Below are positions 3,170-40,749 of a stretch of DNA of 64,000 bases, piece by piece. Position 1 is the first letter of the stretch. Each line of letters opens with the position of its first letter. This DNA is from Streptomyces cyaneofuscatus (GTDB taxonomy: Bacteria > Actinomycetota > Actinomycetes > Streptomycetales > Streptomycetaceae): assembly GCF_000718135.1 (NCBI RefSeq), contig NZ_JOEM01000007.1:310001-374000 (forward strand), in the 5' to 3' direction. Below the pieces are notes generated by a model that worked only from the letters and a program-made list of their open reading frames with translations, was not told the DNA's origin and made no database searches. Position numbers and translations under genes: made by a program.

Positions 3170-4144
3170 ATGAAGAACCAGTACCTGGCCTGGCCCGCAC
3201 TCGCCGCCACGGCCGCCCTCGCCCTCTCCGGCTGCGGCACCACCGAAGCGCCGAAGAAGGAGTCCGCCAAGGAGACCTCGGTGACGGTCACCGACTCCCG
3301 CGGCAAGAAGGTCACGCTCGACGGTCCGGCCAAGCGCGTCGTCGGCACCGAGTGGAACGTCGTCGAGACGCTCGTGACGCTCGGCGTGCAGCCGGTCGGC
3401 GTCGCCGACGTCAAGGGCTACACGGCGTACGACAAGTCCGCGCCGCTCACCAAGGGCGTCAAGGACATAGGCACCCGGGGTGAGCCCAGCGTCGCCACCG
3501 TGGCCGGCCTGAAGCCCGACCTCATCGTCGCCACCACCGACCTCTCCGACTCGGCCATCGCGCAGCTGTCCAAGGCCGCGCCGGTCGTCGTGGTGCGCTC
3601 GGCCGACGCGAGCCGGCAGATCGACCAGATGGTCGACAACGTCAACCTCATCGCGGAGGCCACCGGCACCGAGGAGAAGGCGAAGAGCGAGATCGCCTCC
3701 TTCCGCACGGCGATCGAGGACGGGAAGAAGAAGCTTGCGGCGGCCGGTCTCGACGGCAAGGAGGTCGCCTTCGCCGACGGCTGGCAGGAGGGCAACCAGG
3801 TCTCCGTGCGCCCGTACGTCAAGGGCTCGCTGCTCGCCGACGTCAACACCGAACTCGGCCTGGTCAGCCCGTGGAAGCTGGAGGGCGACAAGGCCTACGG
3901 TCTCGCGGCCACCGATGTCGAGGGGCTGACGAAGATCGGCGACGCGCGGTTCGCGTACATCGCCAACGACTCCGACGGCGGTGACCCGTTCGCCGACGGG
4001 CTCAAGGACAACGCGGTGTGGAAGTCGCTGCCGTTCGTGAAGAAGGACCAGGTCCACCGGCTGCCCGACGGCATCTGGATGTTCGGCGGGACCGCGGCCA
4101 TGCGCGAGTACATCGACGCGCTCGTCGGCGCGCTGACCGCCTGA
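3170..4144 (+). CDS. Iron-siderophore substrate-binding lipoprotein
   Basis: A 324-aa extracellular binding protein anchored by a lipid. The signal peptide ends in the lipobox LALSGC, giving Cys22 as the lipidated residue. The mature protein has the two-lobe layout of the FepB/FhuD/BtuF class (periplasmic-binding, TroA-like), with the VTVTDSRGKKVTLDGPAKRV opening typical of ferric-siderophore binders and a long helical linker in the middle. It lies between the ATPase (8 nt) and the permease (2 nt), so the three are co-transcribed under the iron box. The siderophore is unknown; no siderophore biosynthesis genes are in the window. Confidence 0.93.
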   Translation: MKNQYLAWPALAATAALALSGCGTTEAPKKESAKETSVTVTDSRGKKVTLDGPAKRVVGTEWNVVETLVTLGVQPVGVADVKGYTAYDKSAPLTKGVKDIGTRGEPSVATVAGLKPDLIVATTDLSDSAIAQLSKAAPVVVVRSADASRQIDQMVDNVNLIAEATGTEEKAKSEIASFRTAIEDGKKKLAAAGLDGKEVAFADGWQEGNQVSVRPYVKGSLLADVNTELGLVSPWKLEGDKAYGLAATDVEGLTKIGDARFAYIANDSDGGDPFADGLKDNAVWKSLPFVKKDQVHRLPDGIWMFGGTAAMREYIDALVGALTA

Positions 4145-6294: not shown

Positions 6295-6895
6295 GGGCGA
6301 CCGGCGACCGGCCGGCGGAGGCGGCCGGAAGATCACCGCGCGCCGACTACTGCCCGTAGTCGACCGGTCGCGCGCGCCGGAAGTTCCGGGGGGCGTCCGT
6401 GCCCGGTCGGCGAGCGGGTGCGGCGGGGCGGCCCGACCGGCCGGACCGCCGCGCCCGGGGGCCTTTCGCCCCGGTGCGCCCCGACCGGCCTGCGGGCAAT
6501 TCCGCCCCGCAGGCCGACGAGCCATCGGCATAGCCGGTGACTCCCCGTCAGCCCCATATCAACCGGGCAGAAACTAACCGGCAGAACTTCCGGCGCGGCG
6601 TACCGCCCGGTAACTCAATTCCGGTTACATCTGTATGAGCACCCGCCTGCCGGGAGAAAGCCCCAAAGACCCCACGCGCTCCCTGCGGACCTGGCGATTC
6701 CTCTCCGGGCTCTGCTAGCGTGCCGCTCAAGCCGTTGCAGGGGGATGCTGGTGGCAGGGGGGCCTCCATGCGAGTTATGAATAACTTCGCAGACCGTTCA
6801 CATTTCAACTGGTCCGCCGTGGGAGTGTTGCGCACGGAACGTCCGTGTCCCTTTCGTGAGCGAGAGCGTGACACCCAGAAAGTCCGGCCGTACCG
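6295..6895. other. 600-bp region upstream of the NRPS operon
   Basis: It holds the hairpin described separately, a GC-rich stretch, then a clearly less GC-rich segment from about 6530 to 6900. That segment must contain the promoter of the thioesterase/NRPS operon. An interrupted palindrome GTTAT-GA-ATAAC lies at 6774-6785, extending imperfectly to GCGA(A)GTTAT/ATAACTTCGC. A small open frame of 43 codons (6768-6899) has an AGGGGG ribosome-binding-like stretch in front. I cannot assign a specific promoter with confidence. Confidence 0.5.
6338..6376 (+). terminator. Hairpin downstream of the iron-uptake operon
   Basis: A perfect CGACTAC-TGCCC-GTAGTCG hairpin (6344-6362) is flanked by GCGCGC on both sides, about 45 nt after the permease stop. 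A Rho-independent-like terminator without a U-tract is the likely role, as is common in Streptomyces. Confidence 0.5.
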
Positions 6896-7630
6896 GTGAA
6901 ACTTCTCTGCCTGCCCCATGCCGGGGGTACCGCGAGTCGATACCACCGGTGGACCTCCCTGGTCCCGCCGCACATCGACATTGTCCCGCTGGAGCTCGAC
7001 GGACGTGGCGACCGAATGTCCCACGGGTTTTACGCGTCTTTCGCCGAAGCCCTCGACGACCTCACCCGCCGAGCCGTCTCGGTACTGGAACCAGGAGATT
7101 CTTTTGCGATCTTCGGCCACAGCATGGGCGCCTACATCGCGCTGGAGCTCGAAAGGCGTCTGGAGTCCCTGGGGGTCCGGGCCGATCGGTTGTTCCTCTC
7201 GGGACGGGGCACGCCGGCCTACCACAACGTCCTGAGCAGGCCCGCCCGCGAGCTGAGCGATCAGGAGCTCATCGCCGGGCTCGACGCGTACGGCGGCCTC
7301 CCGCAGGCCGTCGCCGGTCATGAGCTCATGCGCACGCTGTTCCTGCCGATCATCCGGGCGGATTTCCATCTGCTGGAGGACGGTGCGAGGTCGATCGACG
7401 AGCGCGTTCCCGTCCGGAGTCCCCTGGTGATTCTCAACGGCAAGGACGACGCCGCCGCGCAACAGGATCCACCCGGCGTCTGGGAGGCGCTCACCGTGTC
7501 CGGCGTGGAATTCCATTCCTACGCCGGGGGCCATTTCTTTGTCGACGAGAACCTGCAGAGCATCATTCAATTGATCGTGGAAAAGTCGAAGAGGGGGCTG
7601 GAGAAAGATGGTGTCTCCTTCCAGGGATGA
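6896..7630 (+). CDS. Type II thioesterase of the NRPS operon
   Basis: A 244-aa alpha/beta hydrolase that would clear misprimed or stalled acyl groups from the carrier domains of the adjoining synthetases. It begins with the family signature LLCLPHAGG, carries the nucleophile motif GHSMG with Ser76 and ends with the catalytic His213 in GGHFF; an Asp in the ILNGKDD segment is the likely third member of the triad. The GTG start overlaps the stop of a possible 43-codon upstream frame (GTGA). Its own 3' end overlaps the NRPS start by 23 nt, so translation is coupled. A type II thioesterase next to the synthetase genes is a known component of valinomycin clusters. Confidence 0.93.
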   Translation: MKLLCLPHAGGTASRYHRWTSLVPPHIDIVPLELDGRGDRMSHGFYASFAEALDDLTRRAVSVLEPGDSFAIFGHSMGAYIALELERRLESLGVRADRLFLSGRGTPAYHNVLSRPARELSDQELIAGLDAYGGLPQAVAGHELMRTLFLPIIRADFHLLEDGARSIDERVPVRSPLVILNGKDDAAAQQDPPGVWEALTVSGVEFHSYAGGHFFVDENLQSIIQLIVEKSKRGLEKDGVSFQG

Positions 7631-10600
7631 CGCTGGAGTGACTTCGTACGTCTCGGGCGGTGAGGTGGTTTCCCCACCCCGCTGGAAGACCGTCTTCGGA
7701 GCATTGGAAGAAGCCGCCGCACAAGCGCCCGGCACGAAAATTCACCTGTACGACGCCGACGGTTCGTACGATGTCACCACCTACGGCGCCCTGTACGAGG
7801 ACGCATTACGGCTCTCCTGGTGGCTGACGGAAGAGACCGGCCTGCGCGCAGGCGAGAACCTGATTCTCCAGCTGAACAACGCGCATGAATATCTGCGGGT
7901 TTTCTGGGCGGCCGTCCATGCCGGAGTCGTCGTCGTTCCGCTGAGTGTTCCGAATATCGTCGACCGGGACAATCTGGAGAGCGTCTCCCGGGTTCTCGCC
8001 ACGCTGGGGTCCGGCCGGGTGATCGTCGGCCCGGGACTGGCCGAGGCCTATCTTCCGGTCATCTCCGATGCCGGTGTCGAGCGCGACGCGGTCATCGTCC
8101 TTCCCCGGGACACGGAGCTGCCGAGCGCGGGCGGCACGTCCGGTGTGCAGGCCGCGGAGCCCGATGGGGCGGCGGTCATCTTCTTCACCTCCGGGAGCAC
8201 CGGAGCACCCAAGGGTGCCGTGCAGACGCACGGGGCGATCCTGGCCCGGGAAGCCGGCGTCATGCAGAGCGACGGCGGCGGCAGGGACGTCCAGCTCAAT
8301 TGGATGCCGCTGGAACATGCGGCGGGCATTCTCATGTCGCATCTGCGGGGCGTCTGCCGGCTCAGCGAACAGGTCCAGGTCGCGCCCGGACACATTCTGG
8401 CCGATCCGCTGGTGTGGCTCGATCTCATCGACAAGTACCGGGTCAATTACACGTGGGCACCGCAGTTCGCCTACTCCCTGCTCGGCAATCTCGTGCCGGG
8501 ACGGGAACACGCGTCGTGGGATCTGTCCTGCCTTCGCGAGTCCATCAATGCCGGCGAGATGCTCAACGCCCGCGCCATCGCACAACTCACCACCCAGCTG
8601 GCCGAGTTCGGGCTGCGTCCGGATGTCTTCGTGCCGGTGTGGGGCATGGCCGAGACCTGCTCCGGGGTCTTCTACAACCGGGAGTTCGTCCCGGTGACCG
8701 AGGGGCCGGCCACCCCGGGGGACGCGGAAGACGCCGGGCGCGTACCGAAATTCGTCCCGCTGGGCCGTCCGATCCCGGGCCTGGAGGTGCTCGTCGCCGA
8801 CGATGACGGCGCGGCGGTGCCCCAGGGGCAGGTCGGGCATCTCCTGGTCCGCGGGGAGTGTGTGACGCGGGGGTACCTCCACCACCCCACCGCCAACGAG
8901 GAGAGCTTCACTCCCGACGGGTGGTTCAGGACCGGCGACCTCGCCCATGTCCGCGACGGTGTGGTCACCATGACCGGGCGGGCCAAGCAGATCCTGATCG
9001 TGAACGGTCTCAACTTCGACCTCTCCGAGGTCGAGGCGGCGATCGAGGAACTCCCGGCCGTGGAGACGAGTTTCACGGCCGCCTGGGCCCACACCGACCC
9101 CGCGACGGGTGAGGAGCAGGCCGTCGTCTTCTTCGTGCCCCGCGCCGGGCGGACGGCCGAGCCGGTGACGGACGAGCCGGTGACGGACGCCATCCGCGCC
9201 CATGTGCTGCGCAGGATCGGGATCAGGCTGCACGCGGTCATCCCCGTGCGCCGGGAGGACATCCCCAAGACGAACCTGGGCAAGATCCAACGGGCCAAGC
9301 TCGGTGCGGCCTACCGGGACGGCCTGTTCGCCGACCGTACGGCCGGGCAGGACGGCGACGAGCGGCGCCGGGCGCTCCTCGCGGACGCGCTGCGGCCGCT
9401 GATCGGTCCCGGCCGCTACCTCACGGCCTCCGCGAAGGAGCTCGGTTGCACCCGGACCGCTCCGGGTGCCGGGACGACCGGCCGGATCGCCCTGGGTGGC
9501 CTCGGATCGGGATGGGTCCGCAGCACCGAGCTGGAAACGGCGGTGAACGCGCTGCCGGGCGTGGTGGGTTCGCGGGTGTGGACGGGCGATGTGCTGCTGC
9601 CCGGCATGCCGGGCGCGGTCGTCGCGATCGAGCCGCGCTCCGGGCACGCCGACTACCGGGCGGCCGTCCACGAGCGTGCGGTCCGCGCCGTGAAGGCGAA
9701 CGGCATCGTCCACCACGAGGTCGCCTTCGTCGACGGGATCGCCGCACGCCCCGACGCGGAACTGCTCGAAGCTCTGCTCGGCGGCGTCACGGCCGATGGG
9801 GTCGACCTCGCCCCGCCGCGCCCCATAGGCGTCTACGCCGACACGCTCGTCCGGGCCGACGCGGAGGGGCTCCCCGCCCGGCAGCGGCCCGCCCCGGCTC
9901 TCGCGGTCTTCGCGGACGACGAGGACGCCCTGACGGGGTTCCTCGGCTCCGAGGGCCGGCGGGTCGTGTGGGTACGCCCGGCGGACGCGGCTGGCGAGGT
10001 GCGGCTGGAGAGCGGCGGCCTCCCCGGCGTCCTGACCGCCGAGGTCGATCCCGGCTCCTCGGAGGCGTACGCACAGCTCGGCGCGGCCCTGCGGGGTGCG
10101 GGCATCGAGTCCCTGGAGATCGCGCATCTGTGGGCGCTGAGCCCGCTGACGCAGGCCACGGGGTCCGGGGGCATCCTCGGCGCACAGGCCCGTGGGGTGT
10201 TCAGTGTGCAGAACCTGCTGCGTGAGCTCCCGGCGGCCGGTGTCGCCATCTCGTACGGGGCCGTCTTCACCCGTGACGCGCTCGGCGTCCTCCCGGCCAA
10301 CCCGGGCTACGGCTCCGCGCCGATCGCCGGGTTCGTCCGGAGCGCGGTGGCCGAGGGGCACGCACTGACGCACATCGATCTCTCCGGCGCGAACGACAGG
10401 CTCGCCGCACTCTTCGAGCGCGAGGCCTCCCAGCCGCACGACGGCCTCTCCGTGGCCTACGTCGACGGCCTGCGCCAGAAGCAGGCGGTCGAACCGCTGA
10501 CGCTCCCGGCGACCGGCACCTCGCTGGACGGGCAGGACGGCTTCCTCGTCGTCACCGGCGGGCTCGGCGGGATCGGGAAGATCCTCGTCGCCCTGCTCCT

Positions 10601-13600
10601 CCGCCGCTTCCGGCGGAACGTGCTCGTACTCGGCCGGCGCGACGAGGCCGCGGTCCAGGACCAGGTCAGCGCGTTCGAGGCGATCGCGGGCGAGCACGGC
10701 GGGACGTTCACGTACGCGCGCTCCGATCTCCAGGACCCTGTCCAGCTGCGGGAGACACTCCGGCACCACGCCGCCTCGTCCGGTCTCGCGCTCCACGGCG
10801 TCTTCCACCTGGCCGGCATGGTCCACGAGGCGCTGGTGGGCGATCAGTCGACCGAGGAGCTCACGGAGGTCTTCAGGCCGAAGGTGGCCGGTCTCCACCA
10901 TCTGGGCGGTCTGCTCGCCCAGGAGCACCGGGACGCCTTCCTCGTCACCTTCGCCAGTGCGCGGAGCCTCGCACCGGGGGCGACCGTCTCCGCGTACGTC
11001 GCCGCGTCGGACTTCGCCGGGCACTACTCGGCCCACCTCCGCTCCCAGGGTGTGCGCGCCACCTCCGTGGCGTGGGGCGTCTGGGACGAGACGGGCATGA
11101 GCCGCGATCTGAAGGTGAACCGGTCCCTGCACCGGCGTGGCATCGAGACCATCGAGCCGCTCCAGGGGCTCGGCGCCCTCCTCGACGCGCTCCGCACCGA
11201 CCGCCCGGCCGTCTACATCGGTGTGGACGGCTCGCGTCTCCCCCACGGCCTGACGGCCGGGAGCGACGGCACGCCGCCCGAACCCGCTTGTGTCGTCACC
11301 GACTTCGGTGACTTCGAGCGGCTCTTCGCACCACGGGCCGACGCCGTCGAGGACACCGTCCGCGACCACCTCGGCGGTGCGCGGCTCCGGTACGAGATCC
11401 TCGACGAGCTCCCCGTGGACCGCAACGGCCTCGTGGACCGGGACATGGTGCTGGACCGGCTCGACGTGCTGCGCGGCGCGGTGACGGTCGAGCCGCCCCG
11501 CAATGCCACCGAGGAGCGCATACGCGACATCTGCCGGGCGGTGTTCCGGGTCGGGACCATCGGGGTCACGGAGAACCTGTTCGACCTGGGTGCCGACTCG
11601 ATCGCCACCATCCAGCTCCTCGCGAAGCTCCGGGACGACGGGGTGGCCGTGGTCTCGCACGAGGAGTTCTACAAGGAACCGACGATCCGCCACCTCGCCG
11701 GGCAGGCGGCCGGGAGCACCACCCCTCAGGCCCCGGCCCGGCCCTCGCCGAAGGTCGACGCGACGGCCGAGGTCCCCCTCACCCCGCAGCAGCGCCGGCT
11801 CTGGTTCCTGTTCCAGGCCGACCCGGCGAGCCCCTACTACAACAACACCGTCTCCATCGAGGTGTCGGGCGGGGTGGTCCGCCCCCTGCTCAAGACGGCG
11901 CTCATGACGCTCGTCGACCGGCACGAGGCCTTGCGCGTCCGGTTCCGCGAGGACGCGTCCGGCTCCTTCTGGCAGCGCCCCGTCCCGATCGAGGAGGTGG
12001 ACCTGGCCTTCGACGAGCACGATCTGCGTGACCTCCCCGAGAGCGACCGGGCCCGCCGGCTGGACGGGATCATCGCGGCCTCGGCCGCCACCCCGTTCGA
12101 CCTTCTGAGCCAACTTCCGCTGCGTGCCGCCATCGTCACGAGCGCGGACGACCGGGTCACCCTCGTGCTGACCATCCATCACATCGTCTCGGACGGCTGG
12201 TCGATGGGGGTGATCCTCTCCGACCTCGCCGCGATCCACGACGACCTCCTGGAACACGGCGCGCCAAAGCTGGCGCCGGTCAGGGGGCTCTACGGACGGT
12301 ACGTCGCCGACGTCACCGCGTACGAGAACTCCGCGGGCCACCAGGAGCAGTTGGCGTACTGGACGGACGAGCTGGGGCAGGTCACCGTTCCCGCCGAGCT
12401 GCCGGCCCGCGCGAATGCGACGGAGGCGCCGACCTCCGACGGCGAACACCATGAGTCCACCGTGGGCCCCGAGGTGCTGCGTGGTCTGCGCAAGCTCGCG
12501 CGCGACCATGACGTCTCCCTGTACGTCCTGCTGCTCGCGGCCTACGCGGTGCTCCACCAGCGCCTGACGCTCAGTCACCATGTGCGGCTGGGAACGCTGA
12601 TCGCCAACCGCGGCCGGGGGAACACCTCCGACATGGTCGGGTTCCTGGCCAACACCCTGCCGCTCGACATCCGGATCGACGACGCCGAGCCCTTCTCCGC
12701 CCTGGTCCAGCAGGTCAAGCGGAAGGTGATCGGCCTCCACGACCACCAGGACGTGCAGTTCGACTCGTTGGTGCAGGCGTTGCAGCCCGAGCGGGCGCAC
12801 AACAAGAACCCGTTGTTCCAGGTGCTGTTCGTGCTGCAGAACGCCCAGATCGAGCGGCTCAGCACGCCGCGGGCCGACTGGCGGCTGAAGATCTGGGAGA
12901 GCGACACCGCGAAGTTCGACCTGTCCATCCAGGCGTTCGAACGGGACGGGGATCTCGACCTCGTCTTCGAGTACCGTCGCGACCTCTTCCCCCGGCAGGA
13001 CGTCGCGCGCTGGGTGGAGGCGTACCACACGGTTCTCCGCGATCTCCCCGGACTGCTGGACCCGGAGGTCGGGCACATCGACATCGTGCCCGAGGCCGAG
13101 CGGGAGCGCATCCTCTCGGTCAACGGACCTCTCGACGCACCCCTGCCGTCGTCGATCCCGGCGGTGCTGTCCGCCGTGGCGCGGGAGCGGGCCGACCGTC
13201 CGGCGCTGGTCATGGGGGCGGAGTCGTACACCTTCGCCGAGCTCTGGGACCGGTCCGCCGCCTACGCCGCGTATCTGCGGGCCGAGGGTGTCGTCCCCGG
13301 CAGCCGGGTCGGGATCACGGCCCGCCGCTCCCCGCATGTGGTGATCGCCATGATCGCGGTCGCCCGGCTCGGCGCGGCCTATGTGCCCGTACGGCCCTCC
13401 GACCCGGAGGAGCGCCGAAAGCTGGTGCTCTCCGACTCCGAGGCCCTGGTCCTGCTCGACGACGCCGCGGCCGAACCTCTCGGTGACGTACTCCAGTTGC
13501 CTCTCGCGGTCTACGACGCCGCGGCGCCCGACTCCGGGCCCGCGTGGCACGAGACGGACGCCGCGTCGACCCCGGCGTACATCATGTACACCTCGGGCAG

Positions 13601-16600
13601 CACTGGCCGGCCCAAGGGGGTGGCCGTCTCCGTGGAGAACGTCCTCCGGCTGGCGCACCAACCGGACTTCGTCGAACTCGGCCCAGGGGACGTGGTGTTG
13701 CAGACGGGGTCGCTGACCTTCGACGCGTCCACGCTGGAGGTCTGGGGCGCACTGCTGAACGGGGTGGCGCTCCACCTGGTCGACGAGCACGTGCTGCTGG
13801 ACATCACCGCGCTGCGCGAGGCGATCGACGCTTCGGGGGCGACGGTCATGTGGATGAGCGCCCCGCTGTTCAGCCAGATCGTGGACTCCGACCCCGGTGT
13901 CTTCGGGACGCTGCGGCAGCTCCTCGTGGGCGGTGACGTGCTGCCGCCCCGGCAGATCAGGGCGGTCGTCGAGGCGTGCCCCGGCATCCGGATCATCAAC
14001 GGGTACGGGCCGACCGAGAACACCACCTTCTCCACGACGTACCGCATCCCCGACGACGTTCCGGCCGACCGGGCGATCCCCATCGGCCGACCCATCGGCC
14101 ACTCCTCCGCGTACGTCCTGAGCGGCACCGGCCGGCTCCAGCCCATCGGGGTCCCCGGCGAACTCCATGTCGGCGGGCGGGGCGTGGCGCTCGGCTATGT
14201 GAACCGGGACGACCTGACGGCGGCCGCCTTCCTCGACGACCCGTTCGCCGAGGGCGGCCGGATGTACCGGACCGGTGACCTGGTCCGGCTCAACGACGAG
14301 CTGGACCTCGAGTTCATCGGGCGCGTGGACCACCAGGTGAAGGTCCGCGGCTACCGGGTGGAGCTGTCGGAGATCGAGCTCGCCGTCCGTTCGCTGGAGT
14401 ACGTACGGGACGTGGTGATCGAGGCGCGTACGCCGGAGGGCGGCACCCTGCGGCTCGTCGCGTTCTACACGGCCGACGGCGACGCGGACATCCGGGCCGA
14501 TCTGGAGCGGCTGCTCCCCGACTACATGGTCCCCGCCGTCTTCGTCCGGCTCGACCGGCTCCCGCTCGACCGGAACGGCAAGGTCGACCGGCGCCGGCTC
14601 TCCGGCATCGAGATCGCCGCCGGCGGGACGGGCGGCGGCGCGGGCGGGGACGGACCGGCGGACGAGGGTCTGAGTCCCCAGGCGAACGAGCTGCGGCGCA
14701 TCTGGGCCGATCTCCTCGGCTTCGACACGTTCGGGGCGGACGACAACTTCTTCAGCCTTGGCGGGGACTCCATCCAGGTCATCCAGATGACCAACCGGCT
14801 CCGCGGCTCCGGGTACCAGGTCTCCGCGAAGGAGGTCTTCGAGAACCAGTCGATCCGCCGCCTGGCGGCGCTGATGGTGCCGAGTGCGCCGCACGCGCCG
14901 ACGGACCCGTCGGTGAACACCGTCGAGCGAGCGGGGACGGCCGAACTCGCCCCCGTACACGCGTGGTTCTTCGAGACGCTCGGCAACGACGACTGGCTCG
15001 ACCACTGGAATCTGCCGCTCGTCCTGGATCTGGACGAGGACTACCCGCTGCCCCGCATCGCGCAGGCCCTCCGGGCGGTCCAGGAACAGCACCCGGCGCT
15101 GCGGGCGCGGTTCTGGCGGGAGGGGGTCACCTGGCACTACCAGGAGGGGCTGCCCGCCCATGACATCCCGGTCCGCGAGTGGACCACCGAGCAGGTCGCG
15201 GACATCCAGCCGCAGTTGACGGCGATGCAGCGGGCACTCAGCGTCGGCGAGGGCCGGATGCTGCTGGCGGGGAAGGTGAACGCCGGGGCGGAGGTGAAGC
15301 TCGTCCTCGCCCTGCACCACCTCGTCAGCGACGGCGTCTCCCTGCGCATCCTGGCCCGCGACATCCGCACGGCCCTGCGCGAAGCCCCGGCGGAGCTGCG
15401 GCTGCCTCCCGTCGCGGCCACCTTCTCGTCCTGGATCGCGGCCACGCACCAGCGGGTCGCCTCACCCGAGGTCCAGGGGCAGATCCCCTACTGGACCGAG
15501 GTCGCCTCGAAGATCCGGAGCCCCTTCGCGCCGACCGCGCTCACGGAGTCCGGCACGGTGGACCGGGAGTTCGGTGTGAGCGCCGAGGTCACGGGCCGCC
15601 TCGCCCGGATCGGGGCGTCCGTCGCGGGCGCCGAGCTGCAGCACGCCCTGCTCGCCACGCTCACCCGGGCGTACCGCGAGGCGTTCGCCGAGCCGGAGTT
15701 CCCCGTCCTGCTGGAGGGCCACGGACGGTCGGACTCCCCCGGCTCGCCGGACATCTCCGGGACGGTGGGCTGGTTCACCAGCATGTACCCGGCCGTCCTG
15801 CGCGGTGCGGGCGACGGCGCCACCCCGGTCGCCGATGTCCAGGCCGTACGGGAGGAGTTGAGGGCGATACCCGGCGGCGGGGACGACTACGGCGTCCTCG
15901 CCTACCTGGACCACTCCGTGCCGCCCCTGGTCTCCGCCGTGCCGGTCGCCTTCAACTACCTCGGGGCCATGCCCAGCGGGATGGAGCTGGCGAGTTCGGC
16001 GTACGGGGACTTCCGCTCGGGGGCCTCACGGCGTGAGTGCGCCATCGAGTTCAACCTCTTCAAGTACGGCGACGACCTCAAGGTCTCGATGCGGGTGGAC
16101 CGCGCCTTTGCGGACTCTCCCGAGGTAGTGAGGCTGCTGGAGGCGTACGAGCGGAATCTGCTGGCGCTCGCGGAGGGGCTCGACGGCGCCCCCGCTCCCG
16201 CTCCCGCGGCGAAGGAGTCGGCCGCGCTGCCGGCCGCCGACCGGGAGGCCGTCCTCACGGCGTACGGGGACGACGACGTCCAGCACATCCTGTCACTGAC
16301 GCCTACTCAGGAGGGTTTGCTTTACCACGAGTTGATGCACCCAGGCGGCAGTGACTACTTCGGCCAGGTCGTCACCACCCTCCACGGCTCCCTCGACCTC
16401 CCGGCGTTCGAGGCGGCCTGGAACATCGTCATCGCCGAGAACGAGATGCTGCGGACCGTCTACGGCTGGGAGAACCTCTCCCGGCCCGTGCAGATCGTCC
16501 TGGGCTCGGCCGGCTTCCGGATCGACCACCGGGATCTGACCGACCGGGCCGACGAGGCCGAGCGCCGGCGTGCGGTGGACGACCTCCTCGCCGCCGACAT

Positions 16601-17927: not shown

Positions 17928-17949
17928 TCCAAGGAAAACAGGGTTTCTC

Positions 17950-20900
17950 ATGCCGATTCGCACCACCCATCGCGTATCCGAGCTGATTCGCCACCAGGGG
18001 CGCCGTTATCCGGTCGCCGTGGTGGAAGCACGTGTCCGGGAGGTCGCCGACGTGGCGGAGTGCGCGGCGGTCCAGCTGCGCACCCCGGGCGGCTCGACGC
18101 GTTCCGTGGCCTTCGTCCGGACGGTGTCCGGCCGCGCCCTCACCGTCGAGAGCCTGGCGGGGCTCCCGGTGGACGACGTGGTCACCGTGTCCTGCCTGCC
18201 GCTCGACGACCGGGGCGGCGTGGACTACGCGACGCTGCGGCAGGCGGCGCTCGTGGACGCACCGCGGCTGGCGGAGCTGGAGGCCGGATGGCGGGAGAGC
18301 CATGGCCTCGGCGAGAGCGTCGTGCTGTACGGGGAGTCGTACGACTTCGGCGCCCCTCTGGCACGCCCGGCGTACACCGCCTCCTCCGCCGCGCCTGAGC
18401 GGGAGGGCGACGGGCGGATACCCGGTGCGGCTCCCGCCGTTCCCGCGTACATCCAGGGGCCGCCGCTGTTACCCGTACCGGGTGACGCGCGGACGCTGAC
18501 CGACACCCTGCGCCGGGCCGCCGGCAGTGGCGCCGGGCGGGGCTGCCACTTCGTCGACTCCGCCGGTACGGAGAGGTTCCTGCCGTACGCCGAGCTGCTG
18601 GAGCGGTCCGAGCGGGTGGCGGCCTTCCTCCGGGGCGACGGGGTCGTTGCCGGTGACCGGGTCCTCATCCTGGCCGCCGGGCAGGAGGAGTTCGTCGTCG
18701 CGCTGTGGGGTGCGCTGCTGGCCGGGGCGGTGGCCGTGCCGGTGACGGCCTCGGCGGACTACCAGGAGCGTAAGGCAGAGGCGGAGAGCCTCCGGCGGAT
18801 CTGGACCACGGCACGCGAGCCGCGCGTCCTGGCATCCCCCGCCCTGGTGGAGGCGGTCCGGCCCCTGCTGGAGGGCGCGTCGCTGCTGTCGCTGGCCGAG
18901 GCGGAGGAGTGCTCCGCCGCGCCCGTCGCGGTGGACGTCGACCCGGACTCGCCCGCGCTGATCCTCTTCACCTCGGGGAGCACCGGCACCCCGAAGGGGG
19001 TGGTGCAGTCCCACGCGAACATCGTGCACAAACAGCAGGCGGCGGTTCAGCACAGCGCCTACGCGGCCGACGACGTCTTCCTCAACTGGCTGGCCATCGA
19101 GCACGTGGTCGGGCTCATCCACTCCCATCTCCTCCCCCTGTACCTGGACGCCTCCCAGGTCCACGCGGCCACCGACCACGTCCTCGCCCGGCCCACCCGC
19201 TGGCTGGACCTGGCGACCCGGCACCGGGCGACGATCACCTGGGGCCCGAATTCCATGCTGGCCCTGCTCGCCGACACCGTCGCGGGCGGTGAGGCAGCCG
19301 ACTGGGAGCTCTCGGCCGTACGCCGCTGGATCAACGCGGGCGAGCAGGTCCACTTCGCCACCTGCCAGCGGCTTCTGGGCCTGCTCGAGCGGTACGGGCT
19401 GCCCCGGCAGGCGATCAAGCCGGAGTGGGGCATGTCCGAGACGTGCAACATGGTCGTGGTCTCGGACGCGCTGGAGTACGGGAAGTCCACCGGCGTGCAG
19501 TACGTCGACCGGATCCGCCCGGACGGCGGGATCGAGTTCGCTCCGTCCGAGTCCACCGCGCTGAGCCGGTTCGTCGAGTGCGGCCGGGTCTACCCGGGGG
19601 TGGACGTACGGGTCGTCGACGACGCGGGCGAGCTGGTCGACGAGGGGCACGTGGGCCACTTCCAGGTCCGCGGGCTGACCCGGCTCGTCGAATATTTCAA
19701 CAACCCGGAAGCGAACGCCAAGTTCTTCCGCGACGACGCCTGGTTCGACACCGGGGACCTGGCCTTCATCCGGGACCGCAAGGTCACCTTCACCGGCCGC
19801 GGCGCCGACCTGATCATCGTGAACGGCGTCAACATCCAGAACGTCGACCTGGAGGCCGTGGTGGAGACGGTGGACGGCGTCCTGCCGTCCTTCGCCGCCG
19901 CGTGCTCGGTCCGTGACGAGGACGACGTCACGGATCACCTCGCGATCTTCTACACCTCCGAACTGACCTCGCCGGACGCGCTGTTGCGGCAGATCAAGGA
20001 CATCCAGGCCACCCTGCGCCGGGAGTTCAGCCTCTCCGCCCGCCATGTGATCCCCCTGCCGGCCGAGGAGATCCCCAAGACGAGCATCGGGAAGATCCAG
20101 CGGAGCAAGCTCGTCGCCCGCCTCCAGGACGGCACGCTGGACGAGCGGCTCCACGCGGTCGCGCAGTCGCGCGGCTCGGGCGCGGCGTTCATCCCGCCGT
20201 GGTTCTTCCTCGAGACCGAGCAGCCGCGCATTCTTCCGGCGGTGGACGGGCAGCCGGTGACGCTCGATCTGGTGGGCGGTGAGCCGGCGGACCGGGCCGA
20301 GGTCACCCGCGTACTGTCGGAGGGGCTCTCCGTCCAGGCGGGCGAGGGGGCCGAGCGCCCGGACGGCACGCTCGACGCCGTGGTCGACCTGCGGCTGACC
20401 CGGGCCGGGTGGGACAGCCAGGCGGTGTACGAGCTGATCGGCGCCACCACCAAGCTGATCGGGGACCGCGCCGCCGCCGGACGCCTGGAGGGGCTGCGGA
20501 TCGCCCTGATCACCGTCGGCGGACGCGCGCACGACGACAGCGCCCGGGCCCACCTCGGCGCGCTCCAGGGCTATGTGCAGAGCGTCAACGCCGAGGCCGG
20601 TGCACCGGTGCTCGTCTGGTGCGACCTCGATGTGGTAGACGAGACCAACGTGGCTTTGCTGGCAGCCGAGTTGGTGGCGTACGCCCCTGCTCCGGCGGTG
20701 GCCTACCGCGCGGGGACCCGTACGGAACGGGCACTCTCGCCCGCTCCGCGCGACCCCGCCGGGGTGGCGGCCGAGATCAAGGAGGGCGGCCGGTACATCG
20801 TCACCGGCGGCCTCGGCGGTGTGGGGCGGGAGCTGTCCCGGTTCCTCGCCGAGAAGTACGGCGCCCGGCTCGTCCTGATCGGCTCCACGCCGGCCGGGCA

Positions 20901-23900
20901 GCTCGACGAGAGCCGCAGCCACGCCCTGCGCACCCTGGAGGCCCGCACCGAGGTCGACTACGTCTCGGTGGACCTCGCGTCCGACGACGCGCCGGAGCGG
21001 CTCCGGACCGCACTGCGGTCCACCGTGGACGGGCGCATCGACGGGGCGTTCCACCTGGCCGGCCTCGGCAACTTCGGCGAGGACGACGCGCTGGAGGGCC
21101 TCGACGGGGCCCCGCGCCTCGACGGGAGCCGGCTGGCGCGGTACACGGCCCTGAAGGTGCGGGGCATGGCGGCGCTGGCCGGGGAGCTGGCCAAGGACGC
21201 GCTGCTCGTCGGCTTCAGCTCGGTCAACGCCTATTTCGGCGGCGCCGGGTACACGGAGTACTCCGCGTCCAACAGCGCGCTCAACGCAGCGGTGCGGGCC
21301 CTGCGGGAGCAGGGGTACCGGCGCGCCATGTCCCTCGGCTGGAGCGCGTGGTCCGGCACCGGCATGTCGGGCGGGGCGGGCGGCGGCCTGCCGTCCGAGC
21401 GGCGCGGCTTCCTCTCGCTCGACGTCGATCTGGCCCTGGAGTCCGTGGACATCGCGGTCCGGCGCAACCAGCCGGTCACGTACATCGGACTGGACGGCGC
21501 GCACCCCGATGTGGCCTCGCACGTCCGCCGGAAGCCCGGCTGGGAGCTGGTGCCCCGCTACTTCTACGTGGCGGAGAGTGAGCTGGAGGCCGGGCAACTC
21601 GCCGACCTGGGACCGGCGTTGCGCAGCTCACGGGTCGACCAAATCCCCCGCAAGGGCGACGGGCACGTCGACACGGTCCGGCTGCTCCAGACGGCGGGCT
21701 CCACGACGACCGCCGCCCCGCCGGAGACTGCGACGGAGCAGCGGCTCGCCGCGCTGTGGGAGGAGATCCTCGGTACGGAGAACCTCGCACGCGACGACGA
21801 CTTCTTCATGCTGGGCGGCCACTCCCTGATGGCAGCCCGGCTGGCCAACGACATCCGGCTCGCGTTCGGTGTGACGGTCGCGCTGCACGAGTTCTTCAAG
21901 AGCTCCCGCCTCTCCGCCGTGGCCTCCCTGATCGACGAGAAGGCGGCGGCGAGTGCCACCGCTGAAGCGGCACCGCAGGCGGCAGGGACGGCACAGGTGG
22001 CGGAGACGGCGGAGACGGCTGAGGACGGCCTGTCCAGCGCCCAGCGCCGGATCTACTTCGCCGAGCGCGTCGAACCCGAACTCGCGCTCTACAACATCGT
22101 GGCGGCCTGGGAGTTGGCGGGCGCGCTGGAGCCCCGGCTGCTGGAGAAGGCGCTGGTCTACGTCACCCGTCGGCACGAGTCGCTGCGTACGGTCTTCGAG
22201 ACGGTCGACGGCACCCCGCGCGGCCGGCTGGTCGAGGCGCCCGCCGTCGCCCTGGACCATGTGGACCTGCGGGACCGGGAGACCGGTGAGGCGGAGGCGG
22301 TGCTGCGGGAGACGCTGGACCGGGAGCTGGCGCACAAGTACGACCTCGAAGCGGCGCCGCTGGCCCGCTACACCCTGGTAAGTCTGCCCTCGCAGAGGGA
22401 TGTTCTGGTCGTCTCGCACCACCACATCACGTCCGACGGCTGGTCGCTGAGCGTCTTCATGCGTGACCTGGTGACCGTCTACAACGCGCTGGTCTCGCAG
22501 GACATCCCGCTGCTCGCCGCTCTGCCGGCGGACATCACGCGGGCCGTGGCGCGGCAGGACGCGGCCGGTGCCGCCTCCGAGAAGGCGGCGGACCACTGGC
22601 GCACAGTGCTGGAGCAGGACGTCGAACCGCTGGAGCTGCCCACGGACTTCAGCCGTCCGCGCCTCCAGTCCTACGCCGGGGACACCCTCTTCCTCGAACT
22701 CGACCGGGACGAGGTGCGCCGGGTGGGCGAGGCCGCCGCCTCGGCCGGGGTGTCGAGCGCGGTCTTCGTGGCCACCGTCTTCGGTGTCTTCCTCTCCCGG
22801 CTGAGCGGGCAGCGGGAGTTCTTCGTCGGCATGCCCGCGATGCGGCGGGACGATCCGGCACTGCTCGACGCGGTGGGCATGCTGGTGAACACGCTCCCCT
22901 GCCGGGTGTCCCTGGTCGGCTCCGCCTCCGTACGCGATCAGTGCGCCGCTGTCCACCGGTCCATGACGGGGCTGCTGGAGCACCAGGACTACCCCTTCGA
23001 CCACATGGTCACCCACTTCTTCGAAGGCCGTGACACCTCGCGCCCGCCCATCGTCCAGACCATGTTCAACTACGTTCCCCGGGAGGACTTCCCGGAGTTC
23101 GCGGGCGCCGCCCGGACACCGCTCGACCTGCGGCACCGCATCGCCCGCTTCGACCTCTCCCTCCACGCGTACGAGCGGGACCACGGGCTGACCCTGGCCT
23201 TCGAGTACGCGACCTCCCTCTTCCGCGAGGAGACCGTCCAGGGCTGGCGCGCCCACTTCCGTACGCTCCTGTTCTCCATGGCCCACGATCCCGGCGCGCG
23301 GGTACGGGAGTTGAGCGTCCTGACGCCTCAGGAGCGGGAGGAGGTGGTGCGGCTCTCCGACCGGACGAGGCGGAGCGCGCCCGCCGGGCCGGTCGCCGCC
23401 GCGTTCGCGGACACGGCCCGCGCCCACGGTGAGCGGACCGCCGTGGTCCACGGGGAGGAAGAGATCACCTACCGGGAGCTGGACGCCCGCAGTTCGTGCC
23501 TCGCGGCCCGTCTCCGGGAGCAGGGGGTCACCGCCGGTGCCCGCGTCGCGATCGACGCCGAGAAGGCCCTCTCCACGATCACCGGGATTCTCGGCATCCT
23601 GAAGCTCGGCGGTGCGTACGTTCCGATCGACCCCGAACTGCCTTCGGGGGTCGCCGCGTCCATCCTCCGTGCGGGCGGCATCCGTTGGCGCCTCTCGGCC
23701 CGGGGGCTGTCCCCGGTCGACGCGTCGGGCGAGCCGGTAGGGGAGCCGATAGCCCTCCCGTCACATGAGCGGGAGCCGGAGGGCCAGGTACCCCCCGTCA
23801 CCGGGGGCGACGAGGCGTACGTCATGTTCACCTCGGGCACGACGGGCCTCCCCAAGGGGGTCTCCATCAGCCAGGCGAGTGTGGTGGGGCTGGTCCGGGA

Positions 23901-25974
23901 GCCGGGGTGGATCACGCTCGACGAGCAGGTGCGGGTGCTGCAGACCGGCGCGCTCTCCTTCGACGCGTCCACCTTCGAGATCTGGGCGGCGCTCCTCAAC
24001 GGCGGCACGCTGATCCTCACCGGGAAGGACACCGTCCTGGACGTCGGTGCGCTCCGGCGGGAGATCGAGGTGCGCCGTCCCACCCTCATGTGGGTGAGCG
24101 CGCCCCTGTTCCACCAGCTGACGGACGCCGACGCGTCCCTCTTCGACGGACTGCGGGAGCTGGTCGTCGGCGGCGACGTCGTCTCACCCGCCCACGTCAA
24201 CCGGGTCCTGGAGCACAGCGCGGACCTCCGTATCACCAACGGCTACGGCCCGACCGAGAACACCACGTTCACCACCACGTTCTCGACGACCCGGCCCGTG
24301 GAGGGTGCCCTCCCGATCGGGCGCCCGTTCCCCGGCCGGATCGCCCTCCCCCTGGACGAGGCGGGCGCGCTCGTCCCGTACGGCGTGCTGGGTGAGCTGT
24401 ACGTCGGCGGCGAGGGGCTCGCCCTGGGGTACGTCGGCAACGAGGAGGAGGCCGCCCGCCGCTTCGTGGAGACCGAAGCGCTGCCGGGTGTGCGGCTCTA
24501 CCGCACCGGTGACTGGGTCACCCTGAGCCGTGACGGCCGACTCCATTACCACGGACGCCGCGACGGCCAGGTGAAGGTCCGGGGCCACCGGGTGGAACTG
24601 AACGCCGTACGGAGCGCGCTCTGCTCGCTGGCCGGGGTGAAGGACGCCTTCGTCGTCGCGCGTCCGGGTGCGGCGGGGGCGCTGACGGCTCATGTCGCCG
24701 CCGAGGGGCTGCGGGTGGCCGAGATCCAGGAGGGGGTACGCCGACTGGTGCCGCCGTACGCGGTGCCCTCGGCCGTCCACGTCTACGACGCGCTGCCGCT
24801 CAGGAGCAGCGGCAAGGTGGATGTCACGCGGCTGCGCACCGGCGGCGGCGAGGAGGCACCGGACACGGCACCTGAGGCCGCTGCCGAACTCTCCCCGCAG
24901 GCACAGACGTTGCTCGACGCCTACCGCTCCGTCCTGGGGCGCGAACGCGTCCACCCCGACGAGTCCTTCTTCGATCTCGGGGGCGATTCGCTGCTGACCA
25001 TCAAGCTGGTCTCGGTGCTCCACGGCGAAGGCGTGCCGGTCGACCCCAAGCAGGTGTTCCTGTACCCGGACGTCCGCAGCCTGGCGCGGGCGCTCGACGA
25101 GCGGACGACGGACGGCACGTCCGCCGGTGACCCGGCGGCGAAGCTCGTACGGCTCAACCCCGGCAGCGGCGACGGGCCGGGCATCGTCTTCGCGCCGCCG
25201 GCCGGCGGGACCGTCCTCGGCTACATCGAACTGGCCCGCCACCTCCGGGGGTTCGGCCAGATCCACGGCGTCGAGGCGCCCGGTCTCGGTGCCGGGGAGT
25301 CCCCGGTCTACCCGTCGTTCGACGAGATGGTGCAGTTCTGCTCCGACTCGGCGGCCGGGGTGGCCGGCGACGGCGTCTACATCGGCGGCCACTCCCTGGG
25401 CGGGCACATCGCCTTCCACCTCGCGGCGAGGCTCCTGGACCGGGGCGTGCGGCCGAAGGGGCTCATCATCCTCGACACCCCGCCGAATCTGGGCGACATC
25501 CCCGTGGCGGACGCGGACCTCACCGAGGAGGAGACGCGGGTCTTCATCCTCGCCATGGGGATCGGCGGCATGCTGGACCAGGACCGGGATCAGCTCAAGG
25601 ACCTCCCCTACGAGGAGGCGAAGAAGGTTCTTCTCGACCGGGCGAAGAACGATCCGCGGGTCTCCGCCTTCCTCAGCGAGGACTATCTGGACCGGTTCCT
25701 GCGCCTCCAGATGCATCAGCTGATGTATTCGCGGGATGTCGTCCTGCCCGAGCGGAAGCTGGACATCCCGGTCCATGTGTTCCGCACCAAGAACCACGCA
25801 CCGGAGGTGGCGAACCTCTTCTCGGCCTGGGAGAACTACGCGGCGGGCGAGGTGACCTTCGTCGACATCCCGGGTGACCACGCGACGATGCTCAGGGCAC
25901 CCCACGTCAGCGAGGTCGCCCACCTGCTGGACCGCTACTGCGGCCTGCCGACCGGAGACGGTCCGCGCCGCTAG
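17950..25974 (+). CDS. vlm2: Valinomycin-type NRPS 2: A(keto acid)-KR-T-C-A-T-TE
   Basis: A 2674-aa synthetase completing the line. Residues 10-110 resemble the C-terminal A subdomain only (ending LPLDDRGGVD). Then come a keto-acid A domain (A3 FTSGSTGTPKG near 340, LNWLAIEH, A10 Lys in SIGKIQR near 717); KR (IVTGGLGGVGRE near 950, Tyr in YTEYSASN near 1105) with an A10-like QIPRKGDGHVD after it; T (LGGHSL, Ser1292); C (HHITSDG near 1492); A (1820-2295) with code DAFWVGGTF(K), valine type; T (LGGDSL, Ser2347); and thioesterase (GHSLGG, Ser2482; GDHAT His near 2643). By analogy with Vlm2 it adds L-lactate from pyruvate and L-Val, and the TE trimerises and cyclises the tetradepsipeptide. ATG 17950 has AAGGAA 13 nt upstream. 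Confidence 0.93.
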   Translation: MPIRTTHRVSELIRHQGRRYPVAVVEARVREVADVAECAAVQLRTPGGSTRSVAFVRTVSGRALTVESLAGLPVDDVVTVSCLPLDDRGGVDYATLRQAALVDAPRLAELEAGWRESHGLGESVVLYGESYDFGAPLARPAYTASSAAPEREGDGRIPGAAPAVPAYIQGPPLLPVPGDARTLTDTLRRAAGSGAGRGCHFVDSAGTERFLPYAELLERSERVAAFLRGDGVVAGDRVLILAAGQEEFVVALWGALLAGAVAVPVTASADYQERKAEAESLRRIWTTAREPRVLASPALVEAVRPLLEGASLLSLAEAEECSAAPVAVDVDPDSPALILFTSGSTGTPKGVVQSHANIVHKQQAAVQHSAYAADDVFLNWLAIEHVVGLIHSHLLPLYLDASQVHAATDHVLARPTRWLDLATRHRATITWGPNSMLALLADTVAGGEAADWELSAVRRWINAGEQVHFATCQRLLGLLERYGLPRQAIKPEWGMSETCNMVVVSDALEYGKSTGVQYVDRIRPDGGIEFAPSESTALSRFVECGRVYPGVDVRVVDDAGELVDEGHVGHFQVRGLTRLVEYFNNPEANAKFFRDDAWFDTGDLAFIRDRKVTFTGRGADLIIVNGVNIQNVDLEAVVETVDGVLPSFAAACSVRDEDDVTDHLAIFYTSELTSPDALLRQIKDIQATLRREFSLSARHVIPLPAEEIPKTSIGKIQRSKLVARLQDGTLDERLHAVAQSRGSGAAFIPPWFFLETEQPRILPAVDGQPVTLDLVGGEPADRAEVTRVLSEGLSVQAGEGAERPDGTLDAVVDLRLTRAGWDSQAVYELIGATTKLIGDRAAAGRLEGLRIALITVGGRAHDDSARAHLGALQGYVQSVNAEAGAPVLVWCDLDVVDETNVALLAAELVAYAPAPAVAYRAGTRTERALSPAPRDPAGVAAEIKEGGRYIVTGGLGGVGRELSRFLAEKYGARLVLIGSTPAGQLDESRSHALRTLEARTEVDYVSVDLASDDAPERLRTALRSTVDGRIDGAFHLAGLGNFGEDDALEGLDGAPRLDGSRLARYTALKVRGMAALAGELAKDALLVGFSSVNAYFGGAGYTEYSASNSALNAAVRALREQGYRRAMSLGWSAWSGTGMSGGAGGGLPSERRGFLSLDVDLALESVDIAVRRNQPVTYIGLDGAHPDVASHVRRKPGWELVPRYFYVAESELEAGQLADLGPALRSSRVDQIPRKGDGHVDTVRLLQTAGSTTTAAPPETATEQRLAALWEEILGTENLARDDDFFMLGGHSLMAARLANDIRLAFGVTVALHEFFKSSRLSAVASLIDEKAAASATAEAAPQAAGTAQVAETAETAEDGLSSAQRRIYFAERVEPELALYNIVAAWELAGALEPRLLEKALVYVTRRHESLRTVFETVDGTPRGRLVEAPAVALDHVDLRDRETGEAEAVLRETLDRELAHKYDLEAAPLARYTLVSLPSQRDVLVVSHHHITSDGWSLSVFMRDLVTVYNALVSQDIPLLAALPADITRAVARQDAAGAASEKAADHWRTVLEQDVEPLELPTDFSRPRLQSYAGDTLFLELDRDEVRRVGEAAASAGVSSAVFVATVFGVFLSRLSGQREFFVGMPAMRRDDPALLDAVGMLVNTLPCRVSLVGSASVRDQCAAVHRSMTGLLEHQDYPFDHMVTHFFEGRDTSRPPIVQTMFNYVPREDFPEFAGAARTPLDLRHRIARFDLSLHAYERDHGLTLAFEYATSLFREETVQGWRAHFRTLLFSMAHDPGARVRELSVLTPQEREEVVRLSDRTRRSAPAGPVAAAFADTARAHGERTAVVHGEEEITYRELDARSSCLAARLREQGVTAGARVAIDAEKALSTITGILGILKLGGAYVPIDPELPSGVAASILRAGGIRWRLSARGLSPVDASGEPVGEPIALPSHEREPEGQVPPVTGGDEAYVMFTSGTTGLPKGVSISQASVVGLVREPGWITLDEQVRVLQTGALSFDASTFEIWAALLNGGTLILTGKDTVLDVGALRREIEVRRPTLMWVSAPLFHQLTDADASLFDGLRELVVGGDVVSPAHVNRVLEHSADLRITNGYGPTENTTFTTTFSTTRPVEGALPIGRPFPGRIALPLDEAGALVPYGVLGELYVGGEGLALGYVGNEEEAARRFVETEALPGVRLYRTGDWVTLSRDGRLHYHGRRDGQVKVRGHRVELNAVRSALCSLAGVKDAFVVARPGAAGALTAHVAAEGLRVAEIQEGVRRLVPPYAVPSAVHVYDALPLRSSGKVDVTRLRTGGGEEAPDTAPEAAAELSPQAQTLLDAYRSVLGRERVHPDESFFDLGGDSLLTIKLVSVLHGEGVPVDPKQVFLYPDVRSLARALDERTTDGTSAGDPAAKLVRLNPGSGDGPGIVFAPPAGGTVLGYIELARHLRGFGQIHGVEAPGLGAGESPVYPSFDEMVQFCSDSAAGVAGDGVYIGGHSLGGHIAFHLAARLLDRGVRPKGLIILDTPPNLGDIPVADADLTEEETRVFILAMGIGGMLDQDRDQLKDLPYEEAKKVLLDRAKNDPRVSAFLSEDYLDRFLRLQMHQLMYSRDVVLPERKLDIPVHVFRTKNHAPEVANLFSAWENYAAGEVTFVDIPGDHATMLRAPHVSEVAHLLDRYCGLPTGDGPRR

Positions 25975-25992
25975 CCGGCCTCCTCCCCGCCG

Positions 25993-26039
25993 CCCCCCTG
26001 GCCGGTGCCGTCCCGCCGACGACGGCACCGGCCGGGGGC
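25993..26039 (+). terminator. Strong terminator of the NRPS operon
   Basis: A 13-bp perfect inverted repeat GGCCGGTGCCGTC/GACGGCACCGGCC with an 8-nt loop, extended by five C-G pairs across one unpaired T, lies 18 nt after the NRPS 2 stop. It marks the end of the three-gene operon. Confidence 0.75.
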
Positions 26040-26094
26040 GCCAACGACGTACGTATTCGGCCAGTCTCCGACTCAGGGATGCACAGAAATTCCC

Positions 26095-26883
26095 ATGCCT
26101 CATCATCACTCCCGTGACCTCCCCTGCCCGGGCCCTTCCGCTGTGGCGATCGTCCTGTCCGAGGACGAGCGGACGGCACTGGCGGCCCGGGCCCAGTGGC
26201 CGGACCGACGGCGGGCCGAACGGGCCCGGATCGTCCTGGCGTGCGCCGACGGCATGTCGAACATGGGCGCCGCCCGGTCTCTCGGGGTCGCGGTCAAGAC
26301 CGTCGCCAAATGGCGCCGCCGCTTCGCCGCCGAGGGGATGGCGGGGCTCGACGACGCCTGCCGTATGGGCCGGCCCAAGGCGGACCTGGTCCTGGACGAC
26401 GCCGAGCGGGCCCAGTTGACCCGCTGGGCCAGGCGGGCGAAGACCGCCCAGTTCCTGGCGCTGCGCTCGAAGATCGTGCTGCGCTGCGCGGAGGGCGGGA
26501 CGAACCGGCAGGCGGCGGCCGATCTCGGTATCGACGAATCGACCGTGGAGCGGTGGCGGGCCCGGTTCATCGCCCACCGCCTCGACGGCCTGCGGGACGA
26601 GCCCCGGCCGGGGCGGCCGCCGTCTATCCAGCCCGATCAGATCGAGGAGGTCGTCGTGACGACCCTGCAGACCAGTCCGGGCCTGGACAGCCACTGGACC
26701 CGCGCCGCGATGGCCCGGCGCACCGGGCTGTCGGAGTCGACGATCGGCCGGATCTGGAAGAGGTTCGATCTCAAGCCGCACCTGCGGAACGAGTTGCGCG
26801 ACGCACTCGCCGGGCCCGGTGACGCACGGAGCGCACCGGACCCGGCGGCGGACAGACCCCCGGTGGACGGGGTCAGACCGTGA
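26095..26883 (+). CDS. IS630-transposase-derived double helix-turn-helix protein, no DDE domain
   Basis: A 262-aa predicted DNA-binding protein. It contains two tandem copies of the IS630-type N-terminal helix-turn-helix (ARIVLACADG..TVAKWRRRF and SKIVLRCAEG..TVERWRARF), each followed by GLDD/GLRDE..GRP. A winged-helix segment follows (HWTRAAMARRTGLSESTIGR..FDLKPH) of the kind that precedes the catalytic core in these transposases. The protein then stops: the DDE nuclease, starting where other family members read about the cognate catalytic Asp, is absent. ATG 26095 starts just upstream of the conserved part. I see no flanking inverted repeats. It could be a domesticated regulator or a transposase remnant. 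Its stop overlaps the end of the convergent rhamnosidase fragment. Confidence 0.75.
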   Translation: MPHHHSRDLPCPGPSAVAIVLSEDERTALAARAQWPDRRRAERARIVLACADGMSNMGAARSLGVAVKTVAKWRRRFAAEGMAGLDDACRMGRPKADLVLDDAERAQLTRWARRAKTAQFLALRSKIVLRCAEGGTNRQAAADLGIDESTVERWRARFIAHRLDGLRDEPRPGRPPSIQPDQIEEVVVTTLQTSPGLDSHWTRAAMARRTGLSESTIGRIWKRFDLKPHLRNELRDALAGPGDARSAPDPAADRPPVDGVRP

Positions 26884-35564: not shown

Positions 35565-35573
35565 GGCGGGGCC

Positions 35574-36914: not shown

Positions 36915-36951
36915 GGCTGGTCCTTCCGTGGGGCTGGTTACGGGGGTGTGC

Positions 36952-40656: not shown

Positions 40657-40680
40657 GGGGCTGCCCCCTCTCTGTGCGAT

Positions 40681-40714
40681 GGGCGGATGGGCGGATGGGC
40701 GGATGGGCGGATGG
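40681..40714. repeat. Tandem octamer repeat (GGGCGGAT)4
   Basis: Four perfect copies of GGGCGGAT plus two further bases lie in the gap between the binding protein and the DppB-like permease. Such a short perfect repeat can vary by slippage; it might alter spacing between the two cistrons. No function is known. Confidence 0.85.
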
Positions 40715-40749
40715 CGGTGCTGGAAGGAGTGATCGGTGCTGCGGGAGGG

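Follow-up and report, generated by a model that had tools for sequence, protein, structure and literature searches.

Degenerate adenylation-domain sequence on both sides of the Vlm1/Vlm2 border in a putative valinomycin synthetase locus of Streptomyces cyaneofuscatus

Some cyclodepsipeptides built from amino acids and keto acids are made by two-protein nonribosomal peptide synthetases (NRPSs), such as valinomycin synthetase (Vlm1/Vlm2) of Streptomyces tsusimaensis and S. levoris and cereulide synthetase (CesA/CesB). Published Vlm1/Vlm2 assays showed activation of L-Val and, selectively, of 2-ketoisovalerate (Kiv) and pyruvate (PMC8068249), and the ces operon includes a cotranscribed ABC transporter, CesCD, which was reported to take part in synthesis (PMC7527721). 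Here we describe such a locus in 64,000 nucleotides of Streptomyces cyaneofuscatus (assembly GCF_000718135.1, contig NZ_JOEM01000007.1, positions 310,001 to 374,000), hereafter the window. It holds a type II thioesterase gene (TEII), vlm1 and vlm2, and is very probably a complete valinomycin synthetase locus, judging from its architecture, active-site motifs, A-domain pockets and orthology. As a biosynthetic locus it is ordinary and of low surprise, one more well-supported valinomycin cluster; the part most worth specialist attention is the Vlm1/Vlm2 border. By profile comparison, the end of Vlm1 and the start of Vlm2 match one degenerate adenylation (A) domain on either side of its hinge, split between the two proteins.

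The two pieces were placed by hhalign, which scored the Vlm1 tail at 96.5% against columns 337-404 of the A4 domain and the Vlm2 N-terminus at 98.1% against columns 407-509. An AlphaFold2 (AF2) model of the Vlm2 N-terminal A-sub subdomain reached a predicted local distance difference test (pLDDT) score of 82.1, with matches in the fold search. The Vlm1 tail likewise gave an AF2 model with fold matches, as well as matches in a PDB profile search, where 17 were returned at E up to 10, most of them weak and one (properdin) unrelated. StsA was absent among the best 60 of the 139 PDB matches of the Vlm2 N-terminal profile, and neither the Vlm1 tail nor the Vlm2 N-terminus matched an A domain in Pfam at E up to 10, the resemblance being detected solely by profile-profile and PDB-profile comparison. 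In a preliminary description of this DNA, no domain was given for the last ~120 residues of Vlm1 or the first ~170 of Vlm2; the domains it did name are all present, but these two stretches hold the split relic. As a separate observation, the Vlm1 tail corresponds to the FscH segment that was crystallised with an MbtH-like protein (PDB 6EBY).

Of the 22 proteins recovered with the terminal thioesterase (TE) domain, 21 have an alignable N-terminal A-sub piece, the exception being P0007, a 2192-aa record; because the profile used to mark the piece was built from these same 22 sequences, the count shows alignability and not independent detection. Between the window and S. microflavus, the ratio of nonsynonymous to synonymous substitution rates (dN/dS) was 0.22 in the Vlm1 tail and 0.16 in the A-sub piece of Vlm2, although such ratios are noisy for stretches as short as these. 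Whole Vlm1 and Vlm2 gave 0.27 and 0.29, the linkers next to the two pieces 0.51 and 0.71, C3 0.19 and TE 0.15. Against S. harbinensis, the pieces gave 0.36 and 0.41 and the whole proteins 0.40 and 0.41. Purifying selection on both relic pieces is therefore about as strong as on the proteins overall, or stronger.

These features suggest a possible role for the relic. Together, the Vlm1 tail and the Vlm2 N-terminus could rebuild the C-terminal half of an A domain at the subunit border, which would hold C3 of Vlm1 beside A3-KR3-T3 of Vlm2 as an A domain does in an ordinary module, and contact between the pieces would then matter for chain transfer, subunit coupling and the positioning of module 3. 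We assign a probability of roughly 0.3 to this reading, namely that the pieces pack together across the old hinge and help to join Vlm1 and Vlm2, so that a split ghost A domain, descended from an A domain replaced by an A-KR cassette, may serve as a docking device unlike the known small docking domains. If true, the border would be a concrete candidate for Vlm1/Vlm2 coupling and a natural split point for engineering. In the literature searched, as far as its accessible parts go, we found no description of Vlm1-Vlm2 docking, nor of Vlm1 keeping the end of an A core or of a gene border at the hinge, part of which earlier pseudoAsub work may cover.

The main rival to this docking role, to which we give a little less than an even chance, is that the Vlm2 N-terminal A-sub is only one half of an intramolecular split pseudoAsub of module 3 and does not join subunits. 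Alonzo and colleagues are said to have described, in 2020, a split pseudoAsub flanking A and KR in keto-acid modules. An A10-like motif (78.6% against A4 columns 481-509) indeed closes the segment behind KR3, as the second half of such a structure would require. Moreover, an A-sub match also precedes the keto A domain in seven of nine single-chain keto-acid modules, which were drawn from a search with Vlm1 residues 600-1350 and are not a random sample; in P0068 and P0082 the match is weak (14 and 21 bits), and P0076 and P0099 have none. However, this explanation leaves the constrained, complementary A-core end on Vlm1 unaccounted for.

The single-chain modules also bear on the origin of the relic. 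P0065 keeps a worn A core between its C and keto A domains, and P0049, which has no C domain before the keto A, has a partial A core there. Together with the A-sub matches, these worn cores fit a history in which an A-KR cassette entered an ordinary C-A-T module and the original A domain of that module decayed afterwards. That the pieces are nothing more than non-functional debris of the lost A domain seems improbable: an active site is possible in neither piece alone, and the relic core has decayed to differing lengths in other keto-acid modules, as debris would, but both pieces lie well below the adjoining linkers and below their whole proteins in dN/dS against S. microflavus, and the N-terminal one can be aligned in nearly every protein of the set.

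The assignment to valinomycin synthetase was based on the crystallised Vlm2 TE for the TE and on stand-in relatives for the other domains, with the cereulide side represented by the presumed CesB alone. The terminal TE is identical to that of Vlm2 (PDB 6ECB) at 259 of 283 positions, and the next match in the PDB after two Vlm2 sequences scored 54.8 bits against 596. A protein search with this TE (E up to 1e-20) recovered 22 proteins, six at 78-100% identity, whose four named members are from Streptomyces, three at 58-63%, including Glutamicibacter and Rothia, and 13 at 40-48%, including Bacillus, Virgibacillus, Mesobacillus and two Paenibacillus. Over the full length, Vlm1 is 98.3, 95.1 (a partial record), 87.5, 84.4, 63.4 and 64.2% identical to P0024-P0029, and Vlm2 is 97.9, 87.9, 84.5, 66.2 and 65.3% identical to P0002-P0006; two of P0002-P0004 are Streptomyces proteins. 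No other depsipeptide synthetase was found to be more similar, a point chosen beforehand as the refuting test: the Bacillus paranthracis homologue P0015, the presumed CesB, is 34.2% identical to Vlm2, compared with 84.5-97.9% for P0002-P0004. This identity, together with gene content, led us to reject a cereulide-type or other depsipeptide synthetase, and a mosaic was rejected because identity steps of 150 residues against each relative revealed no foreign block. Orthologous loci are present in S. microflavus JCM 4496 (L009; 87% amino acid identity, same flanks) and in S. harbinensis (L010; 63-65%, other flanks), and a third locus of the same scan, in Rhodococcus, is a distant NRPS at 29%.

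The expectation of the preliminary description that the strain makes valinomycin or a close relative is supported by the domain order, the TE, the Val codes and the keto-acid hallmarks. The product is likely to be one of these, valinomycin being proposed because of the orthology to Vlm1/Vlm2. For the same reason, A1 would be expected to take Kiv and A3 pyruvate, as do the assayed orthologues. A related cyclodepsipeptide with other acids, either of the cereulide kind or with another keto acid taken by A1 or A3, is very unlikely, for although keto-acid pockets are difficult to predict and valinomycin strains yield minor analogues (PMC7912928), the four pocket segments differ from P0027 at only 3 of 67 positions in A1 and from P0004 at 1 of 67 in A3, the TE of P0004 is identical to the PDB Vlm2 TE at 277 of 282 positions, and the B. 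paranthracis homologue is so much more distant.

By analogy with the studied orthologues, A1 would activate 2-ketoisovalerate and KR1 would reduce it to D-hydroxyisovalerate (D-Hiv), after which C2-A2-T2-E2 would add and epimerise valine. The chain would then pass to Vlm2, C3 forming the ester with L-lactate (L-Lac) made from pyruvate by A3-KR3, and C4-A4-T4 would add L-valine. Finally, TE would join three such tetradepsipeptides and close the ring, and misloaded carriers would be cleared by the type II TE. The D-Hiv and L-Lac stereochemistry is presumed from the same orthologues.

The genes and domains are listed in Table 1. The three genes are all on the + strand, with a 23-base overlap between TEII and vlm1 and a 22-base gap between vlm1 and vlm2. 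The vlm2 frame is open from 17494 (2826 aa), and the start at 17950 is the one common to relatives; P0002 is likewise 2674 aa long. Pfam detected two AMP-binding, one KR and two PP-binding domains in each protein, together with three Condensation-family stretches (C2, E2 and C3) in Vlm1 and one Condensation and one Thioesterase domain in Vlm2. Reading frames, Pfam and motifs thus agree with the two NRPS sizes and the domain order first proposed, and the type II thioesterase reported with them is confirmed by its Pfam match. TEII is 91% identical in amino acids to its S. microflavus counterpart and 59% to that of S. harbinensis. Rfam gave no match at the gathering threshold in the window.

Table 1. 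Positions of the described features in the window
Feature	Position	Strand	Basis or remark
vlm island, absent between flanks in relatives, ~20.5 kb	6296..26809		precise ends given by G005 only
Type II thioesterase (editing TE), 244 aa	6896..7630	+	Pfam Thioesterase 2.7e-29
vlm1, 3439 aa, A1(keto)-KR1-T1 / C2-A2-T2-E2 / C3 / A-core relic tail	7608..17927	+	
A1, keto-acid adenylation domain, Vlm1 residues 22-579	7671..9344	+	StsA-type hallmarks
KR1 catalytic part, Vlm1 residues 976-1165	10533..11102	+	
C2, Vlm1 residues 1388-1836	11769..13115	+	HHIVSDG
A2, Vlm1 about residues 1856-2335	13173..14612	+	code DALWLGGTFK
E2 epimerisation domain, Vlm1 about residues 2446-2880	14943..16247	+	HHLVSDG
C3, Vlm1 about residues 2889-3320	16272..17567	+	PHISLDG
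Degenerate A-core end (A6-A7 region), Vlm1 residues about 3366-3436, stops at hinge	17703..17915	+	hhalign, PDB profile, AF2
vlm2, 2674 aa, A-sub relic / A3(keto)-KR3-T3 / C4-A4-T4 / TE	17950..25974	+	
A-sub subdomain, Vlm2 residues 7-103, complement of Vlm1 tail	17968..18258	+	hhalign, AF2, fold matches
A3, keto-acid adenylation domain, Vlm2 residues 175-735	18472..20154	+	StsA-type hallmarks
KR3 catalytic part, Vlm2 residues 945-1140	20782..21369	+	
C4, Vlm2 residues 1361-1798	22030..23343	+	HHITSDG
A4, Vlm2 about residues 1816-2295	23395..24834	+	code DAFWVGGTFK
Terminal TE, Vlm2 residues 2390-2673	25117..25968	+	identity to Vlm2 TE of PDB 6ECB
N-terminal half (about aa 5-227 of 447) of HTH/DDE_3 transposase, island right edge	26131..26799	+	gene at 26143-26883

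The pocket codes read from A2 and A4 are of the valine type, as had been proposed, and the A10 lysine that was then assumed is present in both domains. According to PMC11253843, keto-acid A domains lack the pocket-base Asp and have Gly-Met where amino-acid domains have a conserved Pro. At the position of StsA Ile306 (alignment to PDB 6ULW/6ULX), A1 has Ala and A3 has Val, with no pocket-base Asp, and the Gly-Met pair of StsA 414-415 (G414-M415) is kept in both; by these pocket hallmarks A1 and A3 are assigned to the keto-acid type. Other motifs found were the GHSLG of TE, the carrier serines and the A10 lysines. The C3 motif retains the second His and the DG and has Pro in place of the first His, a pattern shared by five aligned relatives. 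As well, Vlm1 has ~190 residues more between A and KR than Vlm2, at residues about 600-825 (window 9405-10082), a block whose dN (0.140 and 0.457) exceeds that of every other measured part of Vlm1. Its first part gave no hhalign match to A1-A4, C2, E2, TE, the KR3 region or the Vlm2 N-terminus, with 26 residues common with the A1 cut disregarded because they arise by construction. By eye the block looks like a worn A-sub, for which profile comparison gave no support, and the idea of a special domain in module 1 was set aside.

The locus lies on an island consisting of TEII, vlm1, vlm2 and a transposase remnant. Three overlapping genome samples were searched for the TE. Of 392 genus genomes, two contain it (the source genome and G344); among 150 relatives, and likewise among 396 genomes sampled from the phylum, the source genome alone does. 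Window positions 1-26783 align without a break to S. microflavus (89% DNA identity), where the neighbouring genes on either side are also the same. Right-flank DNA was matched at least partly in 134 of 384 genus genomes, source included, and the eight best other genomes by this match were inspected for an empty site. The TE was absent in all eight, and the same query did detect G000 and G344. The FecCD gene adjoins the rhamnosidase gene, with vlm absent, in seven of them, the bases between the aligned flanks numbering 1, 39, 60, 64, 68, 87 and 860 (the spacing in G177 was taken from two search tables); in the eighth, G224, the two flanks are not together. Window base 6295 adjoins base 26810 in G005, which defines the island ends, and in the other five stretches compared the right-hand alignment begins only at 26869-26873.

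Full copies of the transposase elsewhere carry HTH and DDE_3 domains, and the S. microflavus copy beside vlm2 (L009 28514-29782) matches over aa 5-431 of 447; we take the element to be of the IS630 type. We infer that the island was gained in an ancestor. Judged by flank proteins, G005 and S. microflavus are about equally close to the window, which would fit either a gain with later loss or an exchange through the flanks. Plasmid records matching Vlm2 at E up to 1e-100 numbered 63, all under 60% identity. S. microflavus JCM 4496 and NBRC 13062 are presumably both deposits of the type strain of that species. The vlm1 and vlm2 frames are uninterrupted in JCM 4496, though NBRC 13062 was reported to be vlm-negative by Matter et al. 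2009, who argued for vertical descent of vlm (PMC2746310). The empty site bears on the question raised there, whether the cluster was lost from vlm-negative relatives or was never present in them.

Other observations concern the rest of the window. A junction lies at 28122/28123, inside the rhamnosidase gene: in G005 the sequences matching its two sides are separated by about 12 kb, and the alignment to S. microflavus stops at the same point, so the window may have lost about 12 kb. The - strand at 33822-42324 carries genes for a FAD-binding hydroxylase, a luciferase-like monooxygenase and an oligopeptide-type ABC uptake set (two ATPases, two permeases and a binding protein). A response regulator and histidine kinase pair on the + strand (50648-52851) lies near the gene for a 1066-aa subtilase-family protein (53507-56707, - strand).

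Compared with the described systems, the locus resembles Vlm1/Vlm2 of S. tsusimaensis and S. levoris in architecture, in its TE, in the type II TE within the cluster and in protein sizes, the published genes measuring 10,287 and 7,968 bp (PMC8068249). Overall identity to the stand-ins P0027/P0004 is about 84%, whereas the closest relatives here are P0024/P0002 (98%). The two-protein keto-acid depsipeptide synthetase design is shared with cereulide CesA/CesB, and the presumed CesB also begins with an A-sub piece. Unlike cereulide synthetase, to whose presumed CesB Vlm2 has the low identity given above, the vlm island here has no ABC gene corresponding to CesCD, and the ABC ATPase at 2223-3161, together with a binding protein and a FecCD gene, lies beyond the island. 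Directly behind vlm2, S. harbinensis does have an ABC ATPase gene and a putative membrane gene of ABC2 type, the latter slightly below its Pfam cut-off (L010 28259-30039), a pair recalling CesCD. As in the split pseudoAsub of StsA-type keto modules, the keto A domain of module 3 is preceded by A-sub-like sequence and its KR is followed by an A10-like end. Unlike it, module 1 of Vlm1 has no N-terminal piece, with about 21 residues before A1, and sequence of the A-core end is also kept here, on the other protein, Vlm1.
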